64,000 bases of DNA, taken from contig NC_135177.1 in the NCBI RefSeq assembly GCF_041146795.1, positions 24,216,560-24,280,559 on the forward strand. Direction: 5' to 3'. The notes beneath the pieces are model-generated. The model had not been told where the DNA came from, ran no database searches, and saw only the letters and a list, made by a program, of their open reading frames with translations. Within the stretch, counting starts at the first letter, position 1. Each line of letters begins with the position of its first letter. The position numbers were made by a program, and so were the translations under genes. Positions 104 to 53,900 of the stretch are shown here, in pieces. The stretch comes from Maylandia zebra. Lineage: Eukaryota > Chordata > Actinopteri > Cichliformes > Cichlidae.

Positions 104-949
104 AGTGCAAGTGTTCCCAGTTTTTTTGTAAATTAAAATTAGAAGGATATCAAATAACTGCTGAGTGCACCACAGCACTTTCACTTTTGATTTCAACAAC
201 TACCACCGCATTATTCAGGAGTTTACTGCCTAGAGTTGTTTATATCCGTTCTTCACTCCATCGATGGCGATCATCATACGTGCTGGACTTTAAATTTAAC
301 GCAATCTAAAAGTAAACAATAAAGGTAGTTCAAGAGTCTGTGCAGCTGTTTCTTTGTCAGGAGCATGCGCACTGTAGCAGTGGGTGGAATGAAAGTGAAA
401 GCGAACAGGCAGGATCGCCCAATGACAGAACAGAGGTCCGTCATCAGTCAATGCGGAAACAAGCACACACGCTCATTTTAACGTAAATCGACAACATAAA
501 TAAAATATATGGATGAATGAATTAATAATTAAATAAATAAATCTTCTTTTGTCTGTTTGGTTTTAGGGTTACCAAAGTGGATCATGGATAGGGACAGGGA
601 CTGGACATCCATGCTTTGTCCAGTCCACACAAGCATGTCTCCAAACCGTTCAACCAGAGGTGTCTCCACTGTGTCCCTCTGATGTGTCTGATTTCTTATA
701 GACCCTAATGAAGACTTAGATTCTAAATGTATTGGTCTGTTTTGTTTGCTGAATTTCTCCAAGAATAAATTGTTACAGGATTTTATCCTGGGCTCTGTGT
801 TGGCCCTGCGACAACATGGTGACCTGTCCAGGGTGCACCCTGCTTCTAACCTTATGGTACTGTAGCTCGGATAGGCTCCAGTGTTGCTCAAGTTCAGATA
901 GTTATAGACACAATGTGCCCCCTATGTTTTTCTCCTAAGCAAAATGATT
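104..949. other. Intergenic stretch with one interspersed repeat
   Basis: No gene recognised. It contains the ISRE-like site at 389-406, AT-rich sequence near 490-545, and at about 785-885 a copy, in a degraded state, of the widespread fish repeat whose core reads 'gacctgtccagggtg'. The 120-codon minus-strand open frame across 529-891 is made largely of this repeat and is not a gene. A related copy lies at 49163-49247. Confidence 0.5.
389..406 (-). promoter_or_regulatory. ISRE-like interferon response element
   Basis: The plus strand reads GAAAGTGAAAGCGAAC; the minus strand therefore has the TTTCNNTTTC core that IRF and ISGF3 proteins bind. It lies about 290 bp upstream of the putative minus-strand signal exon at 40-103. 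A match this short can occur by chance, so the function is inferred. Confidence 0.3.
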
Positions 950-2850
950 AAATTCCTGCATGTCTCCTGCTTCACCACTGAGAAATGCACATACTCCAGT
1001 TTGCTTGTTTGAATCTGCCTGTTATCCATGTTTACAATGCAAAAGCAACACACCAAAGCCTGAAACAAAAGTACAGTGGGATGCAAAAGTTTGGGCAACC
1101 TTGTTAATAGTCATTATTTTCTTGTATAAATTGTTGGTTGTTACAATAAAAAAAAATGTCAGTTAAATATATCATATAGGAGACACACACTGTGATATTT
1201 GAGAAATGAAAAGAAGTTTATTGGATTTACAGAAAGTGTGCAATAATTGTTTAAGCAAAATCATGCAGGTGCATAAATTCGGGCACTGTTGTCATTTTAG
1301 TGATTCCAAAACCTTTAGAACTAATTATTGGAACTCAGATTGGCTTGGTAAGCTCAGTGACCCCTGACCTACATACACAGGTGAATCCAATAATGAGAAA
1401 GAGTATTTAAGAGGGTCAATTGTAAGTTTCCCTCCTCTTTTAATTTTCTCTGAAGAGTAGCAACATGGGGGTCTCAAAACAACTCTCAAATGACCTGAAG
1501 ACAAAGACTGTTCACCATCATGGTTTGGGGGAAGGATACAGAAAGCTGTCTCAGAGATTTAAGCTGTCTGTTTCCACAGTTAGGAACATATTGAGAAAAT
1601 GAAAGACTACAGGCTCAGTTCAAGTTAAGGCTCGAAGTGGCAGACCAAGAAAAATCTCGGATAGACCGAAGCGACGAATGGTGAGAACAGTCAGAGTCAA
1701 CCCATAGACCAGCACCAAAGACCTACAACATCATCTTGCAGCAGATGGAGTCACTGTGCATCGTTCAACCATTTGGCGCACTTTACACAAGGAGATGTTG
1801 TATGCAAAAGTGAAGCCTTTTCTCTGCCCACAGCACAAACAGAGCCGCTTGAGGTTTGCTAAAGCACATTTGGACAAGCCAGCTTCATTCTGGAATAAGG
1901 TGCTGTGGACTGATGAAACTAAAATTGAGTTATTTGGACATAAGAAGGGGTGTTATGCATGGAGGAAAAAGAACACAGCATTCCAAGAAAAACACCTGCT
2001 GCCTACAGTAAAATATGTGGTCATCAAGACAACGACCCAAAACACTGCTCAAAATCCACTAAGGCATTCATGCGGAGAAAAAAGTACAACGTTCTGGAAC
2101 GGCCATCTCAGCCCAGACCTGAATATTATTGAAAATCTGTGGTGTGTGTTAAAGAGCGCTGTCCATGCTCGGAAGCCATCAAACCTGAATGAACTAGAGA
2201 TGTTTTGTAAAGAGGAATGGTCCAAAATACCTTCAACCACAATCCAGACTCTCATTGGAACCTACAGGAAGCGTTTAGAGGCTGTAATTTCTTCAAAAGG
2301 CAGATCTACTTCATATTGATTTCATTTCTTTTTTTGTGGTGCTCAAATTTATGCACCTGCCTGATTTTGTTTAAACAATTATTGCACACTTTCTGTAAAT
2401 CCAATAAACTTCATTTCACTTCTCAAATATCACGGTGTGTGTCTCCTATATATTTAACTGACATTTTTTATTGTAACAACCAACGATTTATACAGGAAAA
2501 TAACGACTATTAACAAGGTTGCCCAAACTTTTGCATCCCACTGTATAACTGAGACTTATGGAAAATTCAAAACATCTACAAGTATTTCATGTTGAAGCCG
2601 AGTGAGATCTATAGGTTGGCACTCGAGTGGAGAAAAGCATAAATTGGCGAATGTGTTCACAAGAATCAGCATCTTCTGCTGGCAAGCATATGGACATAAT
2701 CATAATGAATGAGGTGAATATGATCAAGTGTAGAGGTTTGATCAAGGTGATGGCATTGTTGTAGTGTGACCAGAAACATAGGGGAGACCTGGTGGGTTCT
2801 GATATTATTAGATCACATGAAAATCTGCAAATCAACACCATAAGAGGAAG
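950..2850 (-). pseudogene. Decayed C1r copy 1, split by a Tc1 element
   Basis: 950-1073 aligns by eye with the start of the last protease exon of the C1r copies (5468-5102 and 9617-9251), with many mismatches and no usable frame. 2668-2850 aligns with their middle protease exon (the blocks around 'gtcattgttgtagt' and 'catgaaaatctgcaa'). Between them sits the Tc1 element 1074-2543, inserted at a TA at the edge of the first block. Exon order and strand agree with the intact genes. No CUB, EGF or CCP exons remain. It is the most diverged member of the array, so probably the oldest dead copy. Confidence 0.65.
1074..2543 (+). mobile_element. Tc1/mariner-type transposon with long terminal inverted repeats, dead transposase
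   Basis: The ends are mirror images: CAGTGGGATGCAAAAGTTTG at 1074 and its complement ending at 2543, flanked by TA on both sides. The inverted similarity runs about 200 bp inward from each end. The transposase frame begins at ATG 1465 and reads a Tc1-like helix-turn-helix N-terminus, but has in-frame stops at 1600 and 1705. The middle of the DDE domain is deleted near 2010-2025. The second catalytic region (QDNDPKH) lies in another frame (about 2019-2040), and the third (SPDLNIIENLW) returns to the first frame, which stops at 2319. It cannot encode a working transposase. Confidence 0.9.
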
Positions 2851-3097
2851 GGGGGGAAGTATTCAATAAGCAAATATCAAATAACACATGCAATTGAACC
2901 TGTTAAATTTGATACAGGTTGCCCGTTACAACATAACTATTTGAAGTCATAATTAACTGGTCTTGCAACTATGCTTGCTCTCCTGGCTCCATTTATACTC
3001 ATGATATACTCTTACACTTAAGGGATTTTGCTGTCTGACAACAGACTGAAGACTTAAATGTGTGATTAAATGCCTTTATGCTAACAACAGATTGTTA

Positions 3098-3820
3098 CCT
3101 GGTATGCACTCAACCCACCAGCTGACAATCCCAGCAGCCCAGTGTCTCTGTCACCCTGGCACGAGTCCTTCCCACCTTCAGGGAGTTCAGCACAAAACAT
3201 GTTATTTGTTAATTCTGGTATTTCATGTGTCTCCTTGTGGAAATACACATGCTCATTATTGAAAGACCAAAGCCCGAAACCAGCGTGAAAACAAAAATAC
3301 AGCAGTGACTTCCTGTAAATCTTTTCCACAAAATTAGTGAAATTTATACATGTTGTTACTTAGGGGAGAAGAACAAATTCAAAAATTTATGAGGAAAATG
3401 TTTACTCCTTTTAGATAAATATGATACTTTTAAAAAATCTAATGTATTTATTTGCCTCTTATTTCAGTTATGTGTGTAGTACCCTCCTCTGGCAAACATA
3501 TGGGCATTACACATGAGATTATGAGATCTACTTTTGCACTCTGATCAAGTCAGTACCATTGCTGTAGTCTGTACTGCTGGAGTAGTTGTACTCAGGGTGA
3601 AAATAGACTGAGCTGCTTACTGAAGAGAGCGCTGAAATGTTCTGATATCATTAAGTTACATAAAAATCTGAAACCAGTAGATACAGAGGTCCCATTGCTT
3701 TTGCAGGATGAGAGGATAAGGTTGAGAATATTGGGGAGACTGGATTTGTCCGTGCATGACAGGCTCAGTGTTGGAGAGCTGCCGGCACTCGCTCACTGAA
3801 AACCACAGACACCTGGAAAA
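3098..3820 (-). pseudogene. Decayed C1r copy 2 (protease exons fused to a CUB1 exon)
   Basis: 3098-3286 matches the last protease exon; the minus strand still reads a recognisable [19 protein letters not shown], after which the frame is lost at the catalytic Ser. 3480-3670 matches the middle protease exon. At about 3680 the sequence jumps directly into a copy of the first CUB exon (3683-3815) with the same acceptor region. All exons between CUB1 and the middle protease exon are missing, so a deletion of several kb removed the gene body. Its upstream region (3816-5030) is still highly similar to the upstream region of copy A (8201-9240). Confidence 0.75.
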
Positions 3821-6177
3821 GTGAAAAAATCAGAGCGCTGGAGCTGAGTCAGTCGTCCAAGGTTGATGCAAACAGAACAAGAGCAAATAAAGTGATGCAA
3901 TCGCTGATTTTTATTTTAATTTTAACATCAACTTTCTTCTAACACCAAACTGGTTTCTTCTATATTACTAACAATTTGCTCGCCTTGTTCAATTTTAACA
4001 GCTTCATGTCTAGAACATTGGTTGTAGACGGAGCATAATGATTAAAAAAAACACCATATAACAAAAAGCTCTAAAATCTTGATAGGCTTTGTGAGCTAAA
4101 TTGGAAATTCACAAAAGAAAAAGAAAAACAGCCCATGTCTGTAAAGCTCTGGCATTGATTGAACTTCCAGAAGAGATCTCTCAGACTGGAATGAACCATG
4201 ACTGTCACACAGAAGATGATTAGCTATATTTAGCACTGGAATTTGAACTGGACTTTTTGTGGTAAATGTTGTATTTATATAGCGCTTTACTAGTCCCTAA
4301 GGACCCCAAAGCGCTTTACATATCCAGTCATCCACCCATTCACACACATTGTAGCCACAGCCACCCTGGGGCGCACTGACAGAGGTGAGGCTGCCGGATA
4401 CTGGCGCCACCGGGCCCTCTGACCACCACCAGTAGGCAACGGGTGAAGTGTCTTGCCCAAGGACACAACGACCAAGACTGTCCAAGCCGGGGCTCGAACC
4501 GGCAACCTTCCGATTACAAGGCGAACGCCCAACTCTTGAGCCACGATCGCCCGTCTTCAAGCTTCTTCTTTTTTTCTTTGTTTGCTTTGGTAAAAACAAG
4601 TAGAAACATGATTTGTATGGGAGAAAAAATGCCAATAATGCCTCGAACATGGTTGCACATAAAAGCCGAAAGAATTTAAGTTCGTATCAAGTACAAACCT
4701 GTAGAGAATGAGCCGAAGGAAAAGCACATGGAAAGAGAGCGGGCCTTCTTTGTTAGAGCGGGATGAAATGACTGATGATGTGTTTATCATTTTCAAAGTG
4801 GGAGGATTTGATTAATCTTTGACACAAGAAAAAAACGCATGCAGATCTGCATTAACTATCTTTATTCAAACGTAGTAAAAGACAGGCGTTACAGGGATTT
4901 AAAGACTATGCACCGACTTTCAGACAGTATTTTGTGGTTGTTTCCAGAAAGCGGAAAATCAAAAACTGAGCTTTTAGTGAAATATAGATTAAAAATTCTC
5001 AAATCAAACTCCACAGCAGAGCGAAAATAGTATAATATTTATTGTCCAAATGTTTTGCCTCATCGTGTATTTACACCGTGTTGTACTGAATTACTGTAAC
5101 TTTAGTTCTCCTGCATGGTCTTCTGGATCCAGTTCAGGTAATTAGCGACTCTGGTATAGACTCCATATGTGCCCTTTCTTCCACACTCAACCCCCCAGCT
5201 GACAATCCCAGCAGCCCATTGTCGCCCATCTTTAGTCAGAGTGAAGGGGCCCCCAGCGTCACCCTGGCAAGAGTCCTTCCCACCTTCAGGGAGTCCAGCA
5301 CAAAACATGTTATTTGTTAAGTCTGGTATGTTGTTACGTCTTCTCCTTGCCGAAGTGACTGAATCCCTGCATGTCTGCTGGTCCACCACTGGGAGATAAA
5401 CATACTTCAGTTGATTTGTTAGAATGCGACGATTATTCTCGTTTGTAACACCAAAGCCAGACACCAGCCTGAAAGAATACAAAACACATTCATTGTGGGC
5501 TCAGTAAAATTTTTACTAATCCAGAACCTTAAAGATAATAGCTTGTCAAAATAAAGTGGTTAACAAACAATGAGAGCACTTAAAAGTAACATCAAATTTT
5601 ATACAGTGTAGATGACATTAAAGAGACTTCAAAATCATTATGACACAATAGTAGTTTGTTTACCCCATCACACCAGTATCATATGTGGCTCCCGGTTCTG
5701 GCAAACACACTGGCATTACAGATGAGTTGAATGTGAGTGTGTCTTCCAGTTTGATCAGGGCAATGTCATTGTTGTAGTCTACATAGTTGGGGTTGTTGTA
5801 CTCAGGGTGAACATGGATTGAGGCAGCAAACAGAGGAGATTTCTCGAGGGCTTTTACCTCATTAAGTCCCATGAAAATCTGCAAGTCAATATCATAAAAG
5901 GAAAGACTTACCAAGGGAATCCCAATCAGACAAAGATCATGCAAAGTAATCCTCACAGTCAACTACTTACCCGTAGAGTTTCATTTGATACCACCACTCC
6001 CCTATTTACTACATAATGAGCTGCTGTCATAATCCACCGGTCTCCAATCACCATGCCTCCTCCCCTGTTTCCACTTACACTCAGTAGCACTTGCCAGGGG
6101 ATTGTATTATCTGGAGCATCCTGGCCTCCAAAGATCCTCTGATACACATTGATGTGATTTGTTGGCTGACCACAAAC
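3683..6177. repeat. Left copy of a long direct segmental duplication (partner about 8075-10327)
   Basis: From the CUB1 exon of the downstream copy, through the spacer, to the first protease exon of the upstream copy, this block matches about 8075-10327. From the stop codon back to the first protease exon the offset is exactly 4149 bp at every exon boundary, introns included, so that part has essentially no net indels. Similarity stops within a few bases upstream of the protease-exon acceptor (6177 versus 10326). The array therefore grew by units that span gene borders. Confidence 0.85.
4261..4554 (-). mobile_element. tRNA-derived SINE inserted in duplicated C1r upstream DNA
   Basis: On minus the element starts with a tRNA-like head (GGCTCAAGAGTTGGG as box A, GGTTCGAGCCCC as box B) and runs into a body ending in 'agcgctatataaatac'. 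The paralogous site near copy A (8690-8715) reads straight through 'ctttttgtcttcaag' without it, which gives the boundaries and shows that the SINE arrived after the duplication. Related copies are at 31353-31635 and 37397-37724. The tRNA-derived class is clear; the family name is not certain. Confidence 0.85.
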
Positions 6178-8583
6178 TGGATAAGATGAACAGAACTCAG
6201 GTGTAAGCAAAGGCTTCATGCTTTCATTTTGAAGTCCTAAATTTGTTATTAGAGTATTTTATTTTGACAGCACATCAGTACCTGCTATGCAGGTTGGGAG
6301 AGGGAGTTGCCACTGCCCGTCGCTTTGACACATGGCTGAGAATGTCTTAATCTCTTGTTGTCCCTGAAAATATATGACTGTTACACACATTTTCTAATTG
6401 ACAAATTCACCAAAGAAAAAACCTAAAGAAAAATGAAGAAAGATCTGCTTCTGTTGCTCAAACACAGACACATGGAGATAGCAAAAAAAACTCTATAAAT
6501 ATCCTGTGAGGGAAAAGAGGCTGTTAATAAAGTTCACTGATGCACACTGTAGTAAACAATGAAAATGTCATATTACCATCATCAACTTGTATTCTTGGTC
6601 ACAAGTGACATGGATCGAGTCTCCACTAAAGTATTCATTTAAATCAGGAGTGATCCTGCCTTTTGTCACACTCCCTGGGTGTGGACATTTCACCTCTGTA
6701 AAGAACGCAGCAACCAAACATGAATGAACAGCATGAGAAAAATAGTTTTAAACTGCTAACGTGGAAATGCCACCTCTCCTCCTCACCATGTGTGCTATAT
6801 TGCAGGCTCCAGCCGTTGCTCAGACCTTCCTCCTCAGTGTGGTAGTCCAGCCTGACTGTACTTGAGTTTGTAACTATCAGACCAGGACTCTTTGTTCCAC
6901 AAAATTTCATAGCTAATCTGCCTGGAATGGTCACCTATGAGGGGAGAGATAGTGGAACGCTACATACAGACCAGAGGAGCATGGTTTGTAACTTTTAATC
7001 CCTGTGGGTACCGCGAGTCGTTACCTGTAAAAAGTGACCTTGGCAGCTTGAACCATGCTGATTATCTTTATTATCAATGTGAAAATTGTCTCTGAAGTTG
7101 AGCGTCACGATGAATCTGGGCTCCACAGAGATGATGTACTTGCAGGAGAGAAAAGGGGGTGAGGGTTTAGGATACCCTGGACTGGACAGATGTCCTTCAT
7201 GCTTGTCAAAAACACACCCACCACAGGACACTGGGCAAGAACCAAAGGTCAGTATAATAATAACAGTAAGAGAATCAGTAATCAGCATACCACCTCAACC
7301 ATATTCTAGCGACTGAGCTTCATATGACAAGTATTAATGTACAAAAAGGCCTAATTTCTTGTATTCGACACTTACACAGACATGTGCGCTGGTCTAAATG
7401 AAGCTTGTAACCACTGTGGCAGGAGCAGTGGTAGGACCCAGCAGTGTTGATACAGATTTGAGAGCAAAGCGGACCTGAATCCAGTCCTGGGTCTGTTTTG
7501 GAACACTCGTCTATGTCTATTTAAAGAATATTTACTGTGTTAAACTTTTCCTGAAGCTGTTGATGAAATAGTACATTAATGGGAGTTGGAAAATTTCAGG
7601 AAAACTGTACCTATTGCCTTATACGTGGCAGAAAAACCAGTATGTTGTTGATGCTCTGGTGTAGAGTCACTTGTTTGGAATACGAGAGTCAGTTTGTTGC
7701 CTGGAGAAAGGATCGTCTCGTCACCATGGTGATCAGTAGAGTTTCCCTGGCCACAAAACTTTCCCAAAACCTTTTCATCGTAGAAAAACTGGAAAATTAA
7801 GTCAAAACTCATGTTAACAAACTGCTTTTGTAAAAAAAAAACAAAATTCTAAACCAACGTCTTAATTCAAATTAACTTCCAATCAAACTGAATGAATGAA
7901 TACACTAAAATTGAAAACTGCAATATAAAAAGTTTTGTATCTTGTTTGAAATATTTTTTAAATTCAGATCTAATCAAAGCTCTGACTGTGAGAGAGTCTT
8001 GACTGCAGTCTGCAGAAACTTTAATATCCAGATGTGTTAAAGACAGCTGGATCTGGTAACCCCTGGGAACCCAGAGGTCCCATTGCTTTTGCAGGTGGGG
8101 AGGATAAGGTCGCGGATATTGGGGAGACTGGATTTGTCCGTGCATTTCAGGCTCAGTGGTGGACAGCTGCTGGCACTCGCTCACTGAAAACCACAGAAAC
8201 CTGGAAAAGCAAATAAACAGAGAGCTGGAGCTGAGTCAGTCGTCCAAAGTTGATGCAAACAGAACAAGAGCAAATAAAGTGACACAACCGCTGATTTTCA
8301 CTTTAATTTTAACATCAACTTTCTTCAATCACCAAGCTGATTTCTTCTACATTACTAACAATTTGTTCAACGTCTTCAACTTTAACAGCTATATGTCTAG
8401 AACATTGGTTGTAGATGAAGCATAATGATTAAAAAAAACATCATATAACAAAAAGCTCTGCAATACTGATAGGCTCCATGAGCTTAATGAGAAATTCACC
8501 GAAATAAAAGATTCTTTAATACAACGAACAAATTAAAAAAATCTTCATCACACTCACCAAATGATGCAGTGGGTCCAGCCCAT
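5102..8583 (-). CDS. c1r: C1r-like complement protease, copy A: lacks CCP2 and the catalytic serine
   Basis: Eleven coding exons on minus: 8583-8558, 8200-7987, 7788-7611, 7516-7376, 7230-7025, 6934-6787, 6695-6577, 6363-6282, 6176-5971, 5878-5664, 5468-5102. They sum to 1902 nt, 633 aa. Order: signal peptide ([15 protein letters not shown]), CUB1, Ca-binding EGF (DIDEC), CUB2, CCP1, then the S1 protease domain after activation site R-IFGG. His425 (TAAHY) and Asp478 (NNDIAL) are present, as is the trypsin-type Asp six residues before the active site, but the catalytic position is Ala583 (GDAGGP, codon GCT). CCP2 exons are absent: only 105 bp separate CCP1 from the protease exons. Known family role: C1r activates C1s in the C1 complex. 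This copy should be proteolytically dead. Candidate polyadenylation signal at 5038-5043. Expression unknown; it could be a decoy or a pseudogene in the making. Confidence 0.88.
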
Positions 8584-9250
8584 GTTTGTAAAGCTCTGGT
8601 GTTGATTGTACTTCCAGAAGAGATGTCTCAGACTGGAATGAACCATGACTGTCACACAGAAGATGATTAGCTGTATTTAGCACTGGAATTTGAACTGGAC
8701 TTTTTGTCTTCAAGCTTTTTTATCTTTGTTTGTTTTGGCAAAAACAAGTAGAAACATGATTTGTACGGGAGAAAAAATGCCAATAATGCCTCGAACATGG
8801 TTGTACATAAAAACCAAAAGAATTTAAGTTCGTATCAAGTACAAACCTGTAGAGAATGAGCCGAAGGAAAAGCACGTGGAAAGAGAGCGGGCCTTCTTTG
8901 CATATAAAAGTATTGCTTAGTAATGTTAGAGTGGGATGAAATGACTGATGATGTGGTTATTGTTTTTAAAGTGGGAGGATTTGATTAATCTTAGACACAA
9001 GAATAAAACACATGCAGATCTGCATTAACTATCTTTATTCAAACGTAGTAAAAGACAGGCTTTGCAGGGATTTAAAGATAATGCATTGACTTACAGACAG
9101 TAAATCAATAACTGAATTTATAGAGTTTTTTAATGAAATATAGATTAAAAATTCTCAAATCAAACTCCACAACAGAGAAAATTTAGTTTATTATGCAATT
9201 TTTTTTTCTCATCGTGTATTTACACCGTGTTGTACTGAATTACTGTAACT
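8584..9250. other. Intergenic spacer between C1r copies A and B
   Basis: 667 bp holding the 5' flank of copy A and the 3' flank of copy B. It is paralogous to 4100-5101, apart from the SINE inserted there. A TATA-like TAAATA lies about 100 bp upstream of the copy A start (minus strand). Polyadenylation-type TTTATT (AATAAA on minus) is at 9187-9192, about 60 bp past the copy B stop. Confidence 0.5.
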
Positions 9251-12200
9251 TTAGTTCTCCTGCATGGTCTTCTTGATCCAGTTCAGGTAATTAGCGACTC
9301 TGGTATAGACTCCATATGTGCCCTTTCCTCCACACTCAACCCCCCAGCTGACAATCCCAGCAGCCCAGTGTCGCCCATCTTTAGTCAGAGTGAAGGGGCC
9401 CCCAGAGTCACCCTGGCAAGAGTCCTTCCCACCTTCAGGGAGTCCAGCACAAAACATGTTATTTGTTAAGTCTGGTATGTTGTCACGTCCTCTCCTTGCC
9501 GAAGTGACTGAATCCCTGCATGTCTGCTCGTCCACCACTGGGAGATAAACATACTTCAGTTGATTTGTTAGAATGCGACGATTATTCTCGTTTGTAACAC
9601 CAAAGCCAGACACCAGCCTGAAAGAATACAAAACACATTCATTGTGGGCTCAGTAAAATTCTTACTAATCCAGAACCTTAAAGATAATAGCTTGTCAAAA
9701 TAAATTGGTTAACAAACAATGAGAGCACTTAAAAGTAACATCAAATTTTATACAGTGTAGATGACATTAAAGAGACTTCAAAATCATTATGACACAATAG
9801 TAGTTTGTTTACCCCATCACACCAGTATCATATGTGGCTCCTGGTTCTGGCAAACACACTGGCATTACAGATGAGTCGAATGTGAGTGTGACATTCAGTT
9901 TGATCAGGGCAATGTCATTGTTGTAGTCTACATAGTTGGGGTTGTTGTACTCAGGGTGAACATGGATTGAGGCAGCAAACAGAGGAGATTTCTCGAGGGC
10001 TTTTACCTCATTAAGTCCCATGAAAATCTGCAAGTCAATATCATAAAAGGAAAGATTTACCAAGGGAATCCCAATCAGACAGAGATCATACAAAGTAATG
10101 CTCACAGTCAACTACTTACCCGTAGAGTTTCATTTGCTACCATCACTCCCTTATTTACTACATTATGAGCTGCTGTCATAATCCACCGGTCTCCAATCAC
10201 CATGCCTCCTCCCCTGTTTCCACTTACACTCAGTAGCACTTGCCAGGGGATTGTATTATCTGGAGCATCCTGGCCTCCAAAGATCCTCTGATACACATTG
10301 ATGTGATTTGTTGGCTGACCACAAACTGAATTGGATACAAACTTACATATAAATCTCACACATCAATTTCCCATTAAATTAACCATTTGATCTTCATCAA
10401 GTTTTGCAGGATGGAAATGTATACCTGGTAAACAAAGTGGACTGTCAATAACTTCATGGGTTGATCTCCATTTCCTGTCTGCATCACATGTGAAGTTAAC
10501 TGAGGAGCAGAAGAAGAAACAATGTGACTTTTACATTTTTTTTTGCTGATCCTCAAGAGTTTCAGTTCTCCCCCTTGTGGAAGAAATGTAAAGGGTATAT
10601 ATTTCCAGTTAAATCATGTTAGCATTTAAATCTTATTTAAGTTTTGAATCATGGTAGTATATATCATGTATCATCATATCAGTATGCCATGATGGTTTGA
10701 CTGAATGAGAATCGCACATTATAGTTAATGGAGCCTGCTAATAGTAAAGTTTCAGAACTGTGCAAAAGGAAAGTAATGAACAGTAGGAATCCAAAACAAA
10801 TTGCACTATTAACATCTCACCGTTTGCATCCCCAAGGAGAGAGTAAAATGGTTCATTGCAGCGATACTGAATAACAGAAAGATACTGATTCTGAAACCCA
10901 GAAAGGAAGGCCACGCCTCCGTTCAGCAAGGGGTCAGGTTCTCCGCAATCAATTACTGCAGAGGAACAAAACAAGAAAATACAACAAAATGCACTTTGTC
11001 TGTGAACACTAGTATGGATGGAGAAGACTTTGTGTCTATATGCTTAGAGACGACCTACTGTGGCATTCTGGCAGAGGAAGGTGCCACTGCCCATTGCTTT
11101 GGCAAATGGAAGAGAAACTCTCCATCTCCCGACCATTCTTTAAAGAAGGGTATAAAAACCATGTTTTACATTATACACAGTAACCAGGAAACAATTATTT
11201 TGTTTTTCACTGTTAAAAAACACAATTTCAGCTAACCATCATCAGCTTGTATCCTTGATCGCAGCGTACATAGATGTAATCTCTGAAGAGATATTCACTC
11301 AAATTAGGAGTGACCCTGCCTTTAGCTACACTTCCAGGTGATGGACACTTCACCCCTGGAAACAGCAAAAACAATCAAACATATATTTTACACTGAGATT
11401 TAAACCCAGAAGGACAAACAGGAGAATTGCAGTTGCTTGATGACATGTTACTGTGTGTGCTGTAGTCGAGGCTCCAGCCATTGCTCTGTCCTTCATCATC
11501 AATGTGGTATTCCAGCTTGACCATGTTTGAGTTTGTGACTATCGGTCCTGGGCTCGTTTTGCCACATAGCTTTGTGGGCTGTTCGTCTCTGACAGTCAAC
11601 TTTTTAGGAGAGAGTAGTGCACAGTTTATTAATTGTATGACATATAGAGACATTTTTATTTCCTGTGATTTTGATGAATCTAGGTGTGCTGAAATCGCTC
11701 GCCATTACCTCCAACCAGTGATGGAGACATTGCGGGCCCTCTGGGCTGTCCATGCTCTCAATGTGGAAGTTGTCAGTAAAGTTTAGAGTAATAGTGAAGC
11801 CCTCTTGTACAGAAATGACATACTGACAGGACACAGCATGAGGTGGGTGATTAGGATATCCCGGACTGAACAGATGCCCCTCTGGTTCATCAAATATACC
11901 ACCGCCACAGGATACTGGGCATGAGAGAGAGGAAAGAAACTGAGAAAGTTTACCCTCTTAATGAATTGACTGAAGTGTTTGAGGATAATTTGGGGAGTCC
12001 TTACACAATGTTTTAAGTCCAGAATCAAAAAAGTGATAATAATTAGTGCTGTTTGATGACCCAACTGCCTCCAACATTAAACCCAGACTCCCCATCCTCT
12101 CCTCTTTTTTATAGTGCTTTTGGTAATCTTGAGATCCTATATGTTTGAATGTGTTTGTGAAGTGGAGCTAAGTTCTCCCAGCAGACTCCAGTTTGATGGT

Positions 12201-14165
12201 CTGAGCGCACATTCATTGGAAGCATCTTCATGGTACTCACACACACAGGTGCGCTGATCAGAGCGAAGTTCATAGCCATGATGACAGGAGCAGAGATATG
12301 AGCCAAGAGTGTTGAGGCAGATCTGAGAGCAGAGTGGCCCTGAGCCATCTCCAGGCTCTGGTGCAGAACATTCATCTATGTCTAATAATGAGAAGTCATT
12401 ACGTTAGTGTGAGTTGGCGCAGCAGTAAAAGAAGGAAGTGCAAGAAACAGAGGTGGAGGAGCTACCTATTGCATGGTACTGGGCAGAGAAGCCCAGATTC
12501 TGGTGGGCCTCCGGGTTGTTGCTGTCTGATTGAAAGATGAGGGTGAGACTGTTTCCTGGAGACAAGATGGGCTCGTTGCCTGGGTGATGCCCATCAGCAG
12601 AATTCTCACTGCCACAAAATTTCCAGAGGGCCTTCTCTTTGTAGAAAACCTAAAGGATCAAAGAATAAAATCCTACATGAAAATAAGGCAAAATCCAGAA
12701 GATGAAAATTTATGTTCAGTTCATGGGTTCTTCATTTAAATGTCTAAGATGGTTAAAAGTGCCAGAAAGGCCAAACATAATCCAATGACCCGCCAGAACT
12801 AATGCTAAGTTTAGTTAAGTCAACATCAAACTGGATATAGTAATGCAGAGAAAAAAATCTGTTCAGTTATGTGTCCCTCTACCATTTTAAATTCTGTGCA
12901 ACGTCACAGTAAAGACTGACTCTAAAACTTTTTGTCATAGCAGCAGCGATACAATCTGCTGATAAGCTACAGCTATCTGTTGCTGTTGTCTCCAGTGGTT
13001 ATACACTGTTGTAAATTTTTAACTTACAATTATCACAATCAACAAGATGATCACGGTGATTACCAGGGTTATCATAGTTTCAGTTTAGTCTTTTTTAAGT
13101 ATTATTGTATGGATGTATATTTCAGAGGCAAGATTTAGGAAAATCAAGTACTACAATAAAAACACGCATTTTTGAAAGCAGTTGACTGACAGTCCTCTAG
13201 ATATCCAAAGTCTCATTAAACATGTTTGGCAACATCTCATCAGACAAGTGTCGATAAAATTTTGTGACTGCAATTATATTTTATTTTAATTTCCCAACTT
13301 TAAAAAAAAATTTCAGTTAGTTTTAATTTTATTCAAAAGTTTTTCAAAACTTTTACATCTAGTTTTAACTATAATAACCTTGTTAATTACCTTGACAGAA
13401 ACATGAAAACATATGTAAGTGGTAAACTCAAATCAGGTTGTCAAGCGTTACTCTTGAATCATATTTGGGTTTTCACCTTAAGCTATTTATTAATATTATG
13501 ATTTTTAGGGTAATTCTGTATATGTATTGAAATATGGGTCTGACTGTAAGTGAGTCGTAGTAGCAGTTCGCAGAAGCTTCAATATCCAAATGTGTGAAGG
13601 TGAGTCGAATCTGGTAGCCCTCAGGGACAACGAGGTCCCACTGCTCCTGCAGGTTGGGAGGGTAAGGCTGAGGGTACAGAGGAGATTGGACCTTCCCGTA
13701 CATTTGAGGCTCTGGTTCTGGCAGAGGTGAGCACTCACACACTGAGACATACAGAAACCTAGAAAGGTACAAAAAAGGAAAGAGTTTGATCTGTTTATCA
13801 GTCTGCAGTCATCTGATCTGCCAGTCCAAAGTTGATACAAACACAGAAGAACAAACACAGTGGCACAATCGACACCACTGTGCAACTAATATAATATTGT
13901 CAAGACTGCATATATATGGCATACTGACTGATGAATAAAAATATAAAACACTGTTCATCTAAAGTGAATTCTTGCAGATTATCAGTATAAAAACACAAGT
14001 AATTCTCCACTATTTTCAGCTACATGATTTGAAAATTTCTGCACAAAAGTGGAAATTTATGACCAAAAAAGGGATTTTAGGAGATATTTGACAACTTGAA
14101 AATGTCTAATCCACTTACCAGATGATACAAGAGACCCAGCGCATTTTCCAATTAACCGTATCCAT
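9251..14165 (-). CDS. c1r: Complement C1r, copy B (full-length, intact catalytic triad)
   Basis: Thirteen coding exons on minus: 14165-14119, 13758-13545, 12649-12466, 12381-12241, 11914-11709, 11599-11452, 11355-11237, 11137-11059, 10955-10821, 10499-10425, 10325-10120, 10027-9813, 9617-9251; 2136 nt, 711 aa. A second in-frame ATG at 14144 aligns better with copy A's start and may be the real one (704 aa). Domains: signal, CUB1, EGF (DIDEC), CUB2, CCP1 (about 325-390), CCP2 (about 380-449), protease from Arg463-Ile464 (R-IFGG). Triad His503, Asp556, Ser661 (GDSGGP, codon TCT) with trypsin-type Asp655. The missing His-loop cysteine, the CLPVCG linker and VSGFGV favour C1r over MASP1. It secretes as the zymogen that activates C1s. 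Its protease domain is split over three exons, unlike C1s here. The last three exons are almost identical to copy A. Confidence 0.93.
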
Positions 14166-18834: not shown

Positions 18835-21800
18835 TTACTTTCTCTCTGATTCTTCTGCCTCTACTCTCTCTATTGTCTGCTTAATCCACTTCACATAATT
18901 CCCTACCTTGGTATAATAACCCTTGTTCACTATTGCAGTTGAGTCTCGTTGGGGAATCAGACAGCGAGCTCCCCATGACACAACCCCAGTCAGATAGTAA
19001 GGCCCACTGCTAGAAGACAACATGGGCAAAACAAAAGGACCTCCACTGTCTCCTTTACAACTGTCCTTCCCGCTGTCTCCAGCACAGAACATGTTATTAC
19101 TGAAAATCATGGAGTTCCCACGTGAAGTGACAGGTGTTTTCTCACACTCTCTGCGTGAGTAGGCTGAAACATGAGCATATTTTAAAACATCTGATAACTG
19201 TTTTTTCTCTGTCACCCCCCAGCCTGACACTGTACCTTGTTCATTTTCCAGCACATCACTGTTTTCTTCTGGCAGACAAATGGGAAGCAGGTTTGGGCCT
19301 AATGTGATTCTGGAGGTGAATCTTATAAGAGCAATATCATTGTTAAAATCAGTGCGTGCACTTCCAGTGATCCCCTTTCTGTAGCCAGGATGAATTATGA
19401 TCCTGTTAGTGATCAAGGAAGGTGCGCTTGGGGCATTTGTTGTCGTTTTATCTATCAGTCCACCAAAGACACTCAAAGGGCTGTTCTCATGCCCATCCAC
19501 AACATGAGCCGCTGTCACAGCCCACTGATCATTTATCAGGGATGCTCCTCCTCTGCTGGGCTCTTTTATGAATAGCTGCCATGGTATTTCTCCCAGTTTT
19601 GCATCCTGACCTCCCAAAATTCTTCCTGTACCTGCTATCAGTGTTTCAGGCTGCCCACACACTGAAACAAATAGAAGTCATCATTAAACCCAGAGCTCCA
19701 AACGAATAGTGACATTGAAAAACAGAAGGAATACATCCGTACCTGGAAGACATTTTGGAAACTCTGCATTTCCGTTAGTTGATATCCATTCGCCACTGGC
19801 ACCGCAAATGAATGTGTCTGAAAAGAGTCAAGGAGAAATTTGCAAAAGGAATAACAGATCAGTGATACTAGAAAAGGTATGAGCAAAAACGTCCTGTAAT
19901 CACCATCTCCTTCCAGCGTGTAGTACTTTGAGCTGCAGCTAAACTGGATCTGGTCTTTATATTGAGTTTGTGGGTCATCTGAACCCACCAACTGAAGAAT
20001 ACCATCTTCCGGTATATCAGGAAGTCCACAATTGACCACTATATATGAGAAAAAATGATACTGAGTGTGAAAAAAACAAGTAGACACAAACAGAAAAATC
20101 TGAAATTAATTGTAGTCAGACTCACATCCACAGGTGTAGCTGGGAGTCCATACGCCTGTGCTATGGCACATTGCATTGAACTCTGATTTCACATCATGGA
20201 TGCCTTTATCCTTAATAAAATGAGAATGTAATTTAATTTAGAATTCAATTTATTTAATAAATTAAATATTTACATCAAATGTCAAGGATACACTTCAGAT
20301 TTCTTTCTGCACTCACATCATTTACAACATAGCCCTCTTCACAAGTGACCTTCACTTCTTCACCACGATTATATTCTGCTTTCTTGGGAGTCACGGTGGA
20401 GTGTGAGGTCACCACTGCTGGACAGACCTTATCTGCAATTAAGATGTGAGAAGAAGAGTCACAGTCGTTTCCAACAAACATCCAAACAGATGCTCTTTAC
20501 CAGCTGTGTCTGAGATGAGGAGGCTGCAGTACCTCTGGTCCTGAAGTTGAGGTGGAATCCTTTGTTGGTGCCAAAGTCGTCAGTGGTGAAACGGATCGTG
20601 AGCTTGTTTGCGTGAGTGAGAAATGGCGATTCGGGAGGCGTGTTGCCACAGAACGGTCCCAGAGTCCCAGAGGGAGTCTCAATCTGCAAACAAAACAACA
20701 CAGGCACTGTCACCAAGTTCAAGTTTACAGACTTTCTTTAAGATGCAGACGTGCAGCACCTGTCAAGAATTTGAACACAACTGCTCGATGGATGTGCGAG
20801 ACTATCCGTTTATAGCATTCTGACATGGACGTTTAAAAAAAGAAAACCCTTGTAAAAAAAAAAAAAAAGAAATCATTAGGCCCACAACAGTGTGTTGTCC
20901 TCCCAGCTACAGAGGAAGACCAGCCTTAGAAATCACATATTATAACCCACATCAATGCTTTCCAGACATAAGGTTGCACTTAAAAACTGGATTTATGGTT
21001 TGCATCTGCTTATGTGGTTACTGATACAAGTCTAAGGTGTGATAGTCTGTTAACCAGCATGACTACCACAGTATCCTGCAGTGGTTTGTGCTCAGTGGGA
21101 TGATTATTCATTTCTGAAAAAGACCTAATGACCTAAAACACACCTCCAGGCTCTATGAGGGATCTTTGACCACAAACCTCCACAGCCTCCTGTCCTTATT
21201 GTAACTGAGACTACACAGCAGCAGCCAACAAGATCGTCAATTTTAGAAGGCGACAGACTTAAAAAAAAGTCACAACATTTAAGTAACATGTTGCCAGAAA
21301 ATGCATACAGGAGGCTTTCAGATAAAAATGATTGAAGTCAATTACAGAGAAATCCTGGAGGAAATTCTGACAGTGCATACAGCAGGGCGGTGACGTTGTT
21401 AGCACCATTTCCTCTGAATGTGCTTACAGCAGGTTGGTGACGTTGTTAGCACCATTTCCTCAAAGAAAGAGGGGCCTGGGCTTCAAGCCCCAGCAGGGCC
21501 CTTCTCTCTCTGGAGTTTGCACATTTTTCCCACCGCTTTGGGGGTTTTCTTCTGGAGCTCTGGTTTCTCTTGGTAGCAGCTGTACTCACCCTCCCTCCCC
21601 CTTTTGGTTAGCGCTTGTCTCAGGTATCTCACAAAAGAGATTCTGAATCTCGAATAGTTTCACTTCCTGGTTAAGGGCTAAAAAACTGCTGTTACTTGGT
21701 GAACGACATGGGCTCTAAATGTAAGAACTGAGGCCTGATATGACCTTAAAAATATCAGCCTTAAAGTTCCTGTGTAGATGAAAATGACAAAAGACGTGAT

Positions 21801-24715: not shown

Positions 24716-25747
24716 ATGTGCAAAGAAGATCAGTTCGAGTATGGTGACAGATGCTGTCAACGCTGTAATGCAGGTCAGTGAATACGACAATGCTTCAGTT
24801 CCTCACGTTTCTCCTCGGTTAACAAACTTTCTTTACAGGCTGCACAGCAATTTTCAAAAAACGTATTTTCATTAACCAACATCTAATATACAAGTCTGTT
24901 TGTTTCACCTTGTCAGGAGAGTACATGAAGACAGCATGCGATGGCACAAAAGAGACCGAGTGTGCCACATGTCAATATGGGTTCTACACAGACTCTCAAA
25001 ATCATGTGGACAAATGCCATCGCTGCAAGCAATGCCTTCTCAGTAAGTTACACAGGCATACACGCAGCATTAGTCTTAGAAGCTCAGTCAAAGAAACACA
25101 GAACCACAATTCAGTCTATTTCTAATAGAAATACGACGATATAGAACTAGAAAGACCGTATTTGAACTCTACTATGCAAAATACAAAAAAGCTAGCAGTG
25201 CTGCTTTCACAGCAAAAGAAAGAAAGAAATATACTGTTGGACAGCAGGAAACTGCGCAATAATGATGTTGCAGATTGTGAAAGCTGATGGCTTTTGATAT
25301 CTATACTTATGGAGTAATAATACCTGCTTTGCTGTTGTTTGTCCAAGTCAGCACCACATGCTCACAGATCCACTTCTTTAACATCTTCTTTATTTCTCAC
25401 AAGGGGTCGTTTGACTGTTGAAGTTTCTTTGTATTTTTGTGTTTTTGCAGCGTCCAAAAGTGTTTTGTGGCAACTGTTGTTGTCATTTGGCGCTATTAAA
25501 GTTCAAGGGAAAATTGAATTAAACTAAATTTCCATTTTGAACTAATTGTAAATCCCACAGAGCTTAGCTCAGATTTATGTTAAGATAATTGTGTTAAGAG
25601 ACGATTTTGAGACAATAAAGGAACTTACATTTTCAAGTTCAAGACTTTCAAAATGTTTCATAGCGCAGAAACTGTGAGGTGGGTTTTCACTGTTCTTTAT
25701 GTTCAAGCCACTTTGACACTTTGAACTGGCGATCAACGACCCCCATC

Positions 25748-47900: not shown

Positions 47901-50900
47901 ACCTCATACTATTAAAAATACCCTCCAAATTTGTCTCTTTTCTTTCAGCTTAATGATACACAATAATTAATTACTTGTAAATAATTGTTTGTTTTAGCTA
48001 ATTACTTTGGGACATGATAGGCACAGATAAAAGTCCAAAATTTCTCCTTCTTTATAATTTTCACATTACAATCACACTGAACTGTCTGGCCGCTCATTTC
48101 CGGCTCTTGGGCCTTATGTTTGACACCTCTACTATAGATCATCAGTTTTACAGGTTCCAGCCAACAACACGCAACAGGTGTGAAACACAAACAAGAATCA
48201 GCACACTATAAAAAACTGAAATAAATGTATTAGAGTATAATTAAATGTCTACCAGTCACTTTATTAGGTATATCTGTTCAAACACCTGTAACCCCAAATG
48301 CTTTGACCTGATAGGAAGGCAACAGATAAACCTCATAAAAACCTCATTACAACGCAGGCATGAAGAAGGGCATCTCTGAATCTGTAACATGTTGAACTTT
48401 GAAACAGATGGGCTACAGCAGCAGAAGACCACACTGAGTGTTGCTTCTGTCAACTAAGATCAGGAAATTGAGGCTATGATTCACACACGCTCACCAAAAT
48501 TAGACTGGAAGGCTGGAAAAACTTTGTTTGGTCTGATGAGTCTTAATTTTCTGCTGCATCATTTGGATTGTAGGGTCCGAATTTGATGTAAAAAAAACAA
48601 ACAAAAAAAACACGAATCCATGGATCCATCCTGCGTTTTCATCATCAATTCAGACTGATTGGTGGTATAACTGTGTGGGGGACATTTTCTTGTCACACTT
48701 TCGCCCCCTTAGTACCAATTCAGCATTCAGCACAAGCTACCTGAGTATTGCTACTGAACATGTCCATCCCTTGACCAGAGTGCAGTGTTCTCAAACTAGT
48801 TTCCTAAGATGACAGTAAGCTCTCGGTACTCCAATGGCCTCCACAGTGCTCCGCGTAGAGCACATTTGGGATACAGTGGGACAGGAGATTCACATAATGC
48901 AGACAAATCTGCAGCAACTGTGTGATGCTTTCATGCCAATGTGGATCAAAATGTCTGAGGATCTAGCACCAATCTATGAAATGAAGACTTAAGGCCATTT
49001 TGAAGGCAAAACCCGATGCTCAAATTAAGCGTTTAAGGATGTCCTGATCAGCTCACAAATTCATTCAAAAAGCACAAAAAAAAAACCCCCCTCAAAACAA
49101 AAATGTAAAAGTCCCTAATCTGCTTTTATTTTATTATATTAATTATTCTGATACTTTTCGATAGATTGGTAACATGTCCAGGGTGTACCCTGCCTCCAGC
49201 CCAACTGTGACCCTGTATTGGATAAGTGGAAAAAAAGGATGCATGGATGTTGCTATACTGACCCGTCCTTTCTCGACCTCTCTTGTTGTCATCACGATCA
49301 CGCTGGTCCTCTCTTGCCATACCATCTGCCAGAAATCATTAACTGTTGTTGCTAGACACCCCTGAGTGGCAATGTAAACTTTCTGATCTTCGGATTCCTG
49401 CAGTTTGTTCTGCAAACACAGAGCGAATCAATGCACACTCGGAACCAAGAAAGACTTCAAAGCAACAAATATCACAGTTTTCTTCTGTGTCTTTGTCACG
49501 CTGTGTTTCTATGAGCTCAGTGGCTTTGGATTCTTACTTTCACATAGTTGCCGTTGATGTAATCTGAACCCACAACATTGGGATCACTGTCCTCCAAGAT
49601 GACCCTGGTGTCATTGACTTGTGAGAGGAAAAAAGTGGAAAGAAGTTCATTGAGAAACAGTGGGAAAGTTAGCTCTGTGTTGATTTCTTTAATTCAGAGA
49701 ATAATAATGATAAAATAAAAATGCGCTCACATGGAAGTATGTTCTTGTATCTGTTTTTGCTCTTGTTTTCAGGTCTTTGGCCCTCATCTCTGCTCTTTTT
49801 CACCTTTGCCTCCAACTTTTGAAGAGCCTGGCAGGAGAGAGGATGACAGCGTGATGCCTGCTGTGACCTGTGCAGTATGCTCCATATACAAACCAACGCA
49901 TGTTACAGTTTTATACTAACACGAAATGATAACAACAGCTGTTTTCACAGAAAAATGAGGTCAGCAGAAGGCCTGAACATGTCCTTTCTCACATGTAGCA
50001 TACAAAAGGACATGTTAATCTAGCCTAGGCTACACCCACTTTGTCAATAATAACCCATTAACTCATGTCCTGTACTGCAGTCCTGGACATGAGTTCATAA
50101 ATGTATCTACAGGAATTAATGTTTGTCCATTTTTACATTTTTTTTGGATGACCCTTCCTCCCCAAAAGACACAAATCCATCTACGTATGGTGATCTTTAT
50201 GCACCATCAGTCACATGACTGACATGGGCTGCTTACTAGAGTGACAGCATGCTACAAACAAATGTCTTTTTCCTTGCACAGACAGAAAAGGATTACTTGG
50301 AATGGGAATAGTTTTCTTTTCCTTTAGTTTCCCATGCGTACTTTGTCACTGGCCTCTTGCATGTTTATTACATTCTTAGTCATTTAAAAATGACTAAGGT
50401 TTTTCATACTACACCAATGTAATTAAGTCGTGGCTAAACAATTAACTGACAAAGGTTTCTGTTTTTTCCACTATCTAACATAAAAAGTTTTGGGTTTCTA
50501 GTGAATTCACAATTAAAAACACGAAAATAGAACATTTTCTGTGAATTAACAAAAAAGTTCTGTTTTATAACTACAGGGACAGTCTGGACATGAGCTACTG
50601 CTTTTACACATTCATTTTATCATGTTCAAAAAATTAAATATACTGCTGAAACTGCAATGTTAAAATACCTCATGGATCAAAGTGGGCCGTGTGCGGTCCA
50701 CGATGATTTCACCACTATAGGAGAAACTTGAAGGATAAGTTTAGTTCTCCAGAAAATCCTTTGAACTGATTTTTCGATTAAAATGTTCTTTTGTAAAAGA
50801 ATTTCTGACTCTGGTTTTGGAAATTAGTTTACAATCTTTCCATTAAGTATTTACATTTTAATGAAATAATGAAATAAAGCCACGAGGGTTTAAATTTACT

Positions 50901-53900
50901 AATATTCTTTACCTGGTTTGACAAGTAAATCAACAGAAGTTCAAAATGAATCGATGAAAAGAAACACTTAAATGTTCTGCTTGTGTGGTGATCAAAGCTG
51001 CAAATGAAGCTTTGAATGCCCCATATTTAGTGTATTCTCCAACCACAAGATGGTAGCATACTGCCTGTACAGTTGTTTAGGCCCCACAAGGAAGTAAAAT
51101 ACCAAAGCCTGATGGCAATTTCTGTTGGTTTATAAAATGCTGATGTGTGGTCTATTTTATGCTAATGCTTTGTGTGAAACAGCAATAAGTTTGGATTAAA
51201 TCTTACGTCGAATTCCTCCCAGAAGCCCGCCTTGCTCTTCTCTCCCTCGCCATCCTGCTGCTTCTGTGTGGTCTGGTCCAGCTGTTTCACTCTGCTGTCA
51301 ATATCTGCTGCGTTCACTCTAGTGGAATAATACGGCTGAGGGAGGGAAGGAAAATTTTATATTAGAGATTAAAGGAAATAAGAAGCCAATGAGCGCGTTA
51401 CACATAGTCATAATTAAGACAAACGCAAACAAGTGAGTAATGTTTCCTATCTGTGGGCTGTGCTGCTCGTCTTTTAAAATAATTTACAAAGAAGACATCC
51501 TGCCCTCGTTTTATAAGATTCAAACATGGTTTCATGTGACATTTACCTCAGACATCACTCACACTTTTAGAGTTTCTGGTCTATTGACATAATTTGTCTA
51601 TAGTTTATCTCACCTGTTTGAGGTAAACCCAGTTTCCAGAGATCTCCTCAATGCCTTTGCGTTTGTAGTGCTCCACCAAGTCTGTCAGCGTGTCAAACAT
51701 GTCTGAGCCTCCGATGGTATACCTGTCACTCTGCACACACCAATCATGTCAACGACAACAACAACAAAAAAAGTTTCAAAGACGGCCAAGTGAAAACCCA
51801 CAATTAAAGACAAAGCAAAATTGGAGTTCAGTCAGACAACCCGAGCTTAAAATGTTTAGAGTTTAACATCTAGGCTCCAAACTCTTTCATATTTCAAATA
51901 TGACACATAAAGTTATGTGTCATAAATATAACACATAAATTGGGAAGTGATGAGTAGATATTGCCCCGAAACCTGCAGGTGGATCCTGGGGCAGTGTTTG
52001 ACATGTCAAAGGGAGACATGGGAAATTCTGCAGAAATTCTGTGAATAGGTCACCAAATTGAGATGGCCTGTATGGTACAAGACGGTATAAGAGTGTAGAA
52101 TTGGTGTGTATTAAGGAGCATACACGATTCAATCCAAAGTAAATAAGAAAGGTTTTGGTACAAAAGAGCTGTCAGAGAGCATCCCTCTGTGACATGCACA
52201 TGCAAACAATATTCAAAGCATGTCTACAAAAATGCGTCAATGCTAGACTGCCCAAAATTCTCAGTTTTACAGTTGCTACAAAGCCGATTTCCTCAGGCAG
52301 CGAGCAACCTTCTGCAGCAGCCGACGATTCAGAGCAGTGTGGCCGGCAAACTCGCCTGATCTCTGCCACGTGCTTGTGAAAAGCCCCTTTGTGACCCCAC
52401 CACTAATCTTATATTAATCTTGTTAACCCCAGCAGTGCACAAAACATGTAACCAATTTAAATGCAGGCCGAGGAGTGTTTTCTGTGAGGTGTGCCGTGGT
52501 TAAAAATAACATGCAAAGGCCCTGATAGTGACCAATGGCGGAAAGACACAATCTATGAAAATGAGTCGGCCATGTGAGACGTTTTTGTGAGTATCATTGG
52601 CAGTTGTTTGCTGTGGCTGTGTAAACAAAGACTGATATCAGGATAAGGTTGGGTTTCATCTGTTTGTCTATTTCCACTAAAACATGACACTGCTTTTTTC
52701 TTTTTTTTTTATTTCATCAGTAGCTGAAGTATGAGAAAAAAGTCTTTTATTACATAAGAAGGGGAAATGAGACCTAAAACCTTTTTTCAACGTGAGTTGC
52801 ACATATACGGGAATGTCCCTCAGTATTTTTGTGATGGGACGCAGTTTCAAGGTCTCTTGTTTCTGTACGTTTACACTAAGACAGTGATAAAGAAAAACAA
52901 TACCCTGGTTTCATGCATTCGTATTTGCCACTGAAACATGCATGGCACCCACCTGGCACATTATCTTTATGTGCGAGACCCTCTTTCCTCCGCTTTTGCT
53001 GATCTCGTCCGTCAGAACAGAGAGGACAAAGTCTCCAGGTTTGGACAGCGACTCTCTGACCAGGAAGGTCCCTGGCTCGTCTTTCACAGAGAGCAGCTTC
53101 TCGGCGTTGGGCCCTGACAGGTGACCGTGGTACCACCTGAGACACATGCACACTTGTTTAATATTAAAATGGCAACTTGTGTCTCCTGCAGATTTTTGGC
53201 TTGTGAGCACTGCAAGATAACTTTGACATTTTAGACACAAAAATAAAAAACAAAAAAAACCTCCTTCTTACTGCTTTCTACACGTGAGCTAAGAACCGGT
53301 AGCGCCATGGGTGCTGCATTAAAGGCATTCAAGCCTGAGCGGTTGTCAGAGAGACACTGATGTGGTTCACTGGGCTGTTATGCGTACCGTACAGTAAAAT
53401 AGAAATAGAAAGCCACAACAGAATCGGGAGAATTAGAGGAGTTATAAACAGCGAGAGAAAATACACAGATGTTGCCGTTATAGAGCAGGTCAAGTGTATT
53501 TTTATGTCCAACACTTACTTCGTGTGTGTGTGTGTGTGTGTGTGTGTCAGTGCATGCTCAGTCAGGCTGGGCTGTGACTTAATTTTAGGCACAGTTCTCG
53601 ATTTCTTCGTCTAAACTTCCTGCATTGCGGTCGGAAAATTTCTGATGACAGATTTCGTGGCTGAAGAGGACAAAGTATTTATAGACTCCCCCCGGTTTAT
53701 CATCCACAGATAAGTACGCTTTGTTTTTTTTTTCTTCTTTTTTTGTGTGTTGCAAGTAGTTTTTGCATGCTTTTAATAATTCCCTTCTTTCTTTTTTTCA
53801 AGATTTACTTCTTTGCCAAATCACACAGCATGCTTTTACAAAGAAAAATAAATAGAGACTGCACCTGGTGATTTTTATTTAAGGCAGTGTGCAAGAAAAA

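Follow-up and report, generated by a model that had tools for sequence, protein, structure and literature searches.

One of two tandem C1r-like genes of Maylandia zebra, here called copy A, carries an alanine codon at the position of the catalytic serine. Codon 583 of this gene reads GCT (5257..5255, minus strand), and the corresponding codon 654 of the neighboring copy B reads TCT (9406..9404). The two codons are one base apart, C at 5257 versus A at 9406 on the plus strand, which corresponds to T to G on the sense strand. All positions are those of the window, i.e. the whole stretch of 64,000 nucleotides that was analyzed. Provided that this base is real, it is nearly certain that copy A is catalytically inactive, and we lean towards the view that it is a recently inactivated mosaic C1r duplicate in early decay. 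Since copy A has neither the catalytic serine nor CCP2, and since its protease part was recently shared with copy B, it is probably a duplicate being lost and not a purpose-built decoy. The features of the array are collected in Table 1.

Table 1. Features of the C1r-like array, in positions of the window
Feature	Positions	Strand	Evidence
Copy A: 11 exons, 633 aa, signal peptide-CUB1-EGF-CUB2-CCP1-SP, without CCP2	5102..8583	-	gene models, Pfam
Ala583 codon (GCT) replacing the catalytic Ser	5255..5257	-	A/B alignment, assembled models, residue read-out
First CUB1 exon of copy A, with Lys and Gln at the E49 and Y56 positions	7987..8200	-	alignments, residue read-out
Copy B: 13 exons, 704 aa, CUB1-EGF-CUB2-CCP1-CCP2-SP, intact triad	9251..14144	-	exons, assembled model, Pfam, residues
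The two CCP2 exons of copy B, 10821-10955 and 10425-10499, which copy A lacks	10425..10955	-	exons, Pfam, assembled models
Recombinant tract, aligned without gaps to 9208-10331 over 1124 bases, introns included, with 23 differences	5059..6182	-	A/B alignment, recount
Repeated segment, found again at 8072-10331; stretch of about 4261-4552 unaligned	3684..6182	-	self-alignment, windowed identity
Remnant C: pieces of SP exons (about 69-76% like A/B) adjoining a 5' end (88-95% like that of A), middle missing	3107..4260	-	DNA search, alignments
Remnant D: pieces of SP exons at 930-1055, 2709-2824 and 2926-3001 (about 69-74%), interrupted by a Tc1-like element	930..3001	-	alignments, Pfam

Catalytic site, modules and contact residues

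The exchange of the catalytic serine for alanine by a single T-to-G change had been proposed in a sequence-only reading of this DNA, and it was confirmed by our alignment of the two copies. The span assigned to it there, 5257-5265, covers only the first base of the alanine codon together with preceding codons; the codon itself occupies 5255-5257. The same reading held that the gene is otherwise intact, and this was borne out: the model of 633 codons contains no stop, 10/10 introns are GT-AG, and His425, Asp478, the Arg385-Ile activation site and the specificity Asp of the S1 pocket (Asp577) are all retained. The polyadenylation signal is intact as well, at the place aligned with that of copy B, and the Pfam Trypsin domain of copy A spans the whole profile with a score as good as that of copy B. 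Among the four structure alignments that reach the catalytic position, the residue is Ser in three and Ala in one, the human C1r chain 9ekd. This chain is presumably an engineered form, because a 2025 paper reports the deliberate change of S654 to alanine in human C1r (PMC11928764), and Ser was therefore taken as the ancestral residue. The human mutation was made because the zymogen otherwise autoactivates (PMC11928764), and this purposeful use of Ser-to-Ala supports the earlier claim that copy A is unable to act as a protease. A DNA search of the single assembly gave no second copy or allele of copy A elsewhere among the matches listed.

Apart from CCP2, copy A has the exon layout of C1r. Pfam assigned one Sushi domain to copy A and two to copy B. 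In copy A the CCP1 exon is spliced directly to the protease exon, and the intervening intron of 105 bp (6177-6281) holds no CCP2 exon. This join preserves the reading frame, because the CCP1 and CCP2 exons both end in phase 1. When intron 6177-6281 was compared with both candidate introns of copy B, the matches were too poor to time the loss of CCP2 at, or before, the recombination described below. Copy B (704 codons; GT-AG in 12/12 introns) shares the full module order of C1r. Its best solved match across CCP1-CCP2-SP is human C1r, and for its CUB1-EGF-CUB2 part the top score is that of MASP-1. Copy A agrees with C1r in homology and in its position beside C1s, standing in tandem with a gene whose best solved match is C1r. 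It departs from C1r in the order CUB1-EGF-CUB2-CCP1-CCP2-SP, in the catalytic His-Asp-Ser, where H425 and D478 are accompanied by Ala583 at the place of Ser, and in the C1q-binding residues of CUB1.

The latter residues were located by counting along alignments. E49, Y56 and D102 of the human C1r CUB1 module are described as essential for C1q binding, with E45, Y52 and D98 as their C1s counterparts (PMC4222235). At these positions copy A, aligned with human C1r, has Lys, Gln and Ser, and copy B, from its alignment with MASP-1 and the A-B alignment, has Glu, Tyr and Asp; the assignment of D102 in copy A is less certain because an Asp sits one residue further on. The same source also names D226 and H228 of CUB2 (PMC4222235). 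The D226 position is Asp in copy A and Glu in copy B, and the H228 position is Lys in copy A and Met in copy B. As H228 is replaced in both, CUB2 fails to set copy A apart in the way CUB1 does. An additional Cys is present in the CUB2 module of copy A (SCGGC versus SCGGG in copy B). Its EGF module retains the DIDEC calcium motif and all six cysteines, and judging from these residues copy A may bind C1s through this module.

In mammalian C1r the protease lies in a single exon and the serine codon is AGY. In both C1r copies of the window the SP domain is split over three exons (9251-10325 in copy B), with TCT as the serine codon of copy B, and the neighboring C1s has a single open protease frame (18835-19677) with the serine codon AGT. 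TCN and AGY serine codons in lamprey are treated in PMC6015906.

Mosaic structure of copy A and the surrounding array

The two copies are unevenly diverged along their length. In the 5' halves, 228/371 residues are identical (61%), with dN 0.27 and a saturated dS of 1.65. In the protease parts the identity rises to 247/261 residues, and the DNA of this part, exons as well as introns, is 98% identical. Six of the tract differences fall in the 287 bases of the two internal introns, 16 in 788 bases of exon, and the remaining one at 6180; the similarity stops immediately upstream of 6182, 6 bp before the first SP exon. Because it sits within a tract that is only 2% diverged from copy B, introns included, the alanine codon is young and would postdate the last exchange between the copies, in support of the term 'very recent' that the earlier reading applied to a possible pseudogene. 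At usual fish mutation rates, this divergence would represent on the order of a million years.

The tract is part of a longer repeat, which holds the 5' end of one C1r gene, an intergenic stretch and the SP end of the next gene. Between 3700 and 5099, repeat identity is 74-98% in 12 of 14 bins of 100 bp, and the remaining two bins are unaligned. We infer that an older duplication may have placed the protease end of copy B beside the other type of 5' half, and that the tract would later have been re-homogenized, most simply by gene conversion.

Copies B (14144-9251) and A (8583-5102) form a tandem pair on the minus strand, with two broken copies, remnants C and D, downstream of them. Remnant C has a 5' end at 3684-4260 and, next to it, pieces of protease exons (3107-3235, 3475-3667). 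The pieces of remnant D would, from their order, belong to one copy. The Tc1-like element between them (1072-2545) has inverted repeats of about 215 bp that are 91.6% alike and, at 1708-2319, an open frame for a transposase (Pfam HTH_Tnp_Tc3_2). The C1r array thus seems to be shrinking through decay of its downstream members. The C1s gene lies further along, at about 18.8-23.9 kb, and its protease frame at 18838-19677 best matches human C1s (186 bits; C1r 162). A TNFR_c6 frame at 24823-25125 (27.6 bits, below the Pfam cut-off of 29.4), a Y_phosphatase frame at 49143-49427 and an SH2 frame at 52911-53267 suggest a gene for a TNF receptor and one for a PTPN6-like phosphatase, whose human counterparts lie next to C1R/C1S. 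A protein search of the 962-Mb genome (63 contigs) with copy B, in which 63 of 409 candidates were scored, gave no locus outside the array that matched across CUB, CCP and SP modules among the 74 matches listed. These included a region of contig 14 in which three pieces, one CUB and two protease, matched at 45-54% identity.

Constraint on the two copies and polarity of the changes

The earlier proposal to compare dN/dS between the copies gave a divided outcome. In the 5' half, dN/dS is about 0.16, an average over the A-B pair with dS saturated, which indicates strong constraint. In the protease exons, dN is 0.025 and dS 0.0055, with 15 nonsynonymous changes and one synonymous change since the recombination, and here the nonsynonymous rate is not below that of the introns, from which it does not differ (Fisher p 0.82). 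The whole-gene A/B dN/dS (0.16/0.53) was set aside as a mixture of old and young parts. Because the dS of the 5' half is saturated (1.65), a simple relative-rate count was used in place of branch-specific rates, restricted to CUB1-EGF-CUB2 and with C1s exon peptides from the window as outgroup. Twenty sites were unique to copy A and 12 to copy B (p 0.22), so there is no significant speed-up of copy A in this part.

With the neutral rate set by the intron divergence and the number of nonsynonymous sites estimated at about 595, 3.7 nonsynonymous changes are expected in the protease exons at omega 0.3 against 15 seen (P 9e-6); at omega 1, at least 15 changes have a P of 0.27. In neutral simulations of 16 changes, 11.7 were nonsynonymous on average, and one or no synonymous change occurred with P 0.05. 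In at least one of the two copies, then, the protease exons evolved without constraint or under selection for change. The intact frame of copy A had been read, together with the dead active site, as suggesting a pseudoprotease or a very recent pseudogene. It proved uninformative as to function: when 20 substitutions were simulated neutrally over the whole coding sequence, 44% of the runs were free of stops (substitutions only, no indels).

Remnants C and D served as outgroups to assign the changes to one copy or the other, and as they are only about 69-76% like A and B, the resulting polarity is provisional. Eleven of the 23 tract differences were resolved (nine coding and two intronic, at 5512 and 5556) and 12 were unresolved. 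Ten of the 11 had changed on copy B and one on copy A (p 0.012). With the Ser-Ala change, which was polarized by family comparison and entered in this second test only, the tally is 10/12 on B (p 0.039), and without the disputed site 5335 it is 9/10 on B (p 0.021). At 5335 two alignments conflict, one showing C gapped and D with a third base, the other C with the base of copy A; at 5341 they likewise conflict, with a third base in C versus the base of copy A in C. The outgroups concur at all four doubly resolved sites in one alignment (5341, 5728, 5742 and 5744). As most of the resolved changes fall on B, the pairwise lack of constraint cannot be assigned to A, and decay of the protease domain in copy A alone, which was considered, is not supported by these counts.

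The protease domain of copy B carries an N-glycosylation sequon, NVT, at residue 556 (9887-9895), which is absent from copy A. With most outgroup-resolved changes since the recombination on B, and this sequon, the active copy B may be the one that changes fast, and it may be adapting.

Alternative explanations and relation to known proteins

If copy A is a decaying duplicate, unequal crossing-over followed by gene conversion would have joined an old, diverged CUB1-EGF-CUB2-CCP1 part to B-like protease exons, and Ala583 would have arisen after the last exchange between the copies. The protein would be secreted and cleavable at Arg-Ile, incapable of cutting a substrate and, without the CUB1 residues for C1q and without CCP2, of little use to C1. 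Copy A would then be an early-stage pseudogene beside two older broken copies, with copy B remaining as the working C1r. The catalytic loss and an A-B nonsynonymous rate in the protease that is not below the intron rate argue for such decay, as do the mosaic tract with its abrupt edge, the missing CCP2, the altered CUB1 residues, the extra Cys of CUB2, the two broken remnants in the array and the lack, among the genome matches listed, of another locus with all three kinds of module. Against it stand the location of most resolved changes on B, the constraint on the 5' half with no significant speed-up, and the intact frame, splice sites and polyadenylation signal. A post hoc calculation also counts against it: 2 to 11 changes would strike a triad codon by chance with a probability of about 2-12%.

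Another reading is a functional pseudoprotease that works without C1q. Through the EGF/CUB1 interface it would be a dead partner of copy B or C1s, or else it would bind the substrate of C1r, and either way it would damp the classical pathway. We consider this unlikely but credible. In its favor are the long-term constraint on the 5' half with no significant speed-up there, the small number of protease changes resolved to copy A, and the preservation of the activation site, the pocket and the calcium motif of the EGF module, and regulatory relatives with a dead protease or none are known, such as MAp44 and tilapia MAp34 (PMC7435015); the inactive protease-like domain of haptoglobin likewise serves binding (PMC5807381). 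The alanine, however, has existed too briefly for prolonged selection on a pseudoenzyme, and the protein would act without CCP2 and the CUB1 residues for C1q. A related scenario, to which we attach a small probability, makes copy A an older, separate paralogue that did not bind C1q, gained the protease of copy B and lost catalysis, and would now restrain C1r/C1s, either as a dead partner or by trapping substrate. That copy A occupies C1q as a decoy had been put forward earlier and is very improbable. It was dropped as the leading idea because the CUB1 module of copy A itself has K, Q and S at the positions on which human C1r depends to bind C1q (PMC4222235), where copy B has E, Y and D; H228 is missing from CUB2 too, although copy B also lacks it. 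The decoy draws on the resemblance of CUB1-EGF-CUB2-CCP1 plus a dead protease to MAp44, a competitor of MASPs for MBL and ficolins (PMC7435015), and a shift by one residue could yet bring an Asp near position 102. Finally, the alanine base might be an assembly error or a segregating variant, with copy A otherwise an active, single-CCP C1r-like protease. This is improbable, even if a single base within a tandem repeat that is 98% identical, where reads can be misplaced, rests on one assembly and is accompanied by just one other resolved change in the protease part of copy A. GCT is not a copied base of B, because B reads TCT, and a mixture of A and B reads would be expected not to yield GCT.

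No catalytically dead C1r duplicate was recognized in the literature among the matches listed (titles and abstract openings, with few subscription journals), and a paper on fish complement genes (PMC7768046) had, as far as its listed text goes, no bearing on the question. The closest counterpart in residue is the engineered human C1r S654A (PMC11928764; 9ekd), with the identical Ser-to-Ala exchange at the equivalent residue; it is a laboratory product meant to keep the protein in its zymogen state, and it retains CCP2, which copy A lacks. MAp44 and MAp34 resemble copy A in having CUB1-EGF-CUB2, with CCP1 in MAp44, and no protease activity (PMC7435015), and they are alternative splice products of MASP that have no SP domain at all. 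Copy A, in contrast, is a gene of its own whose SP domain (Pfam Trypsin) is full-length but dead, and its collagen-binding residues are altered. Haptoglobin combines a CCP with an inactive S1 domain and is described as MASP-derived (PMC5807381), and 4f4o is among the PDB matches listed; the description gives it a CCP and an SP-like chain and no CUB-EGF-CUB (PMC5807381), and copy A is likened to it by its modules.

Domain-based annotation would label copy A a trypsin-type protease, which it cannot be if the alanine base is real. If copy A is dying, the array would be a snapshot of the loss of a tandem complement protease, with domain swap, catalytic death and fragments side by side. If it is kept, copy A would be a pseudoprotease of the classical pathway, and as a dead partner it would represent a gene-encoded counterpart of MAp44 for that pathway.
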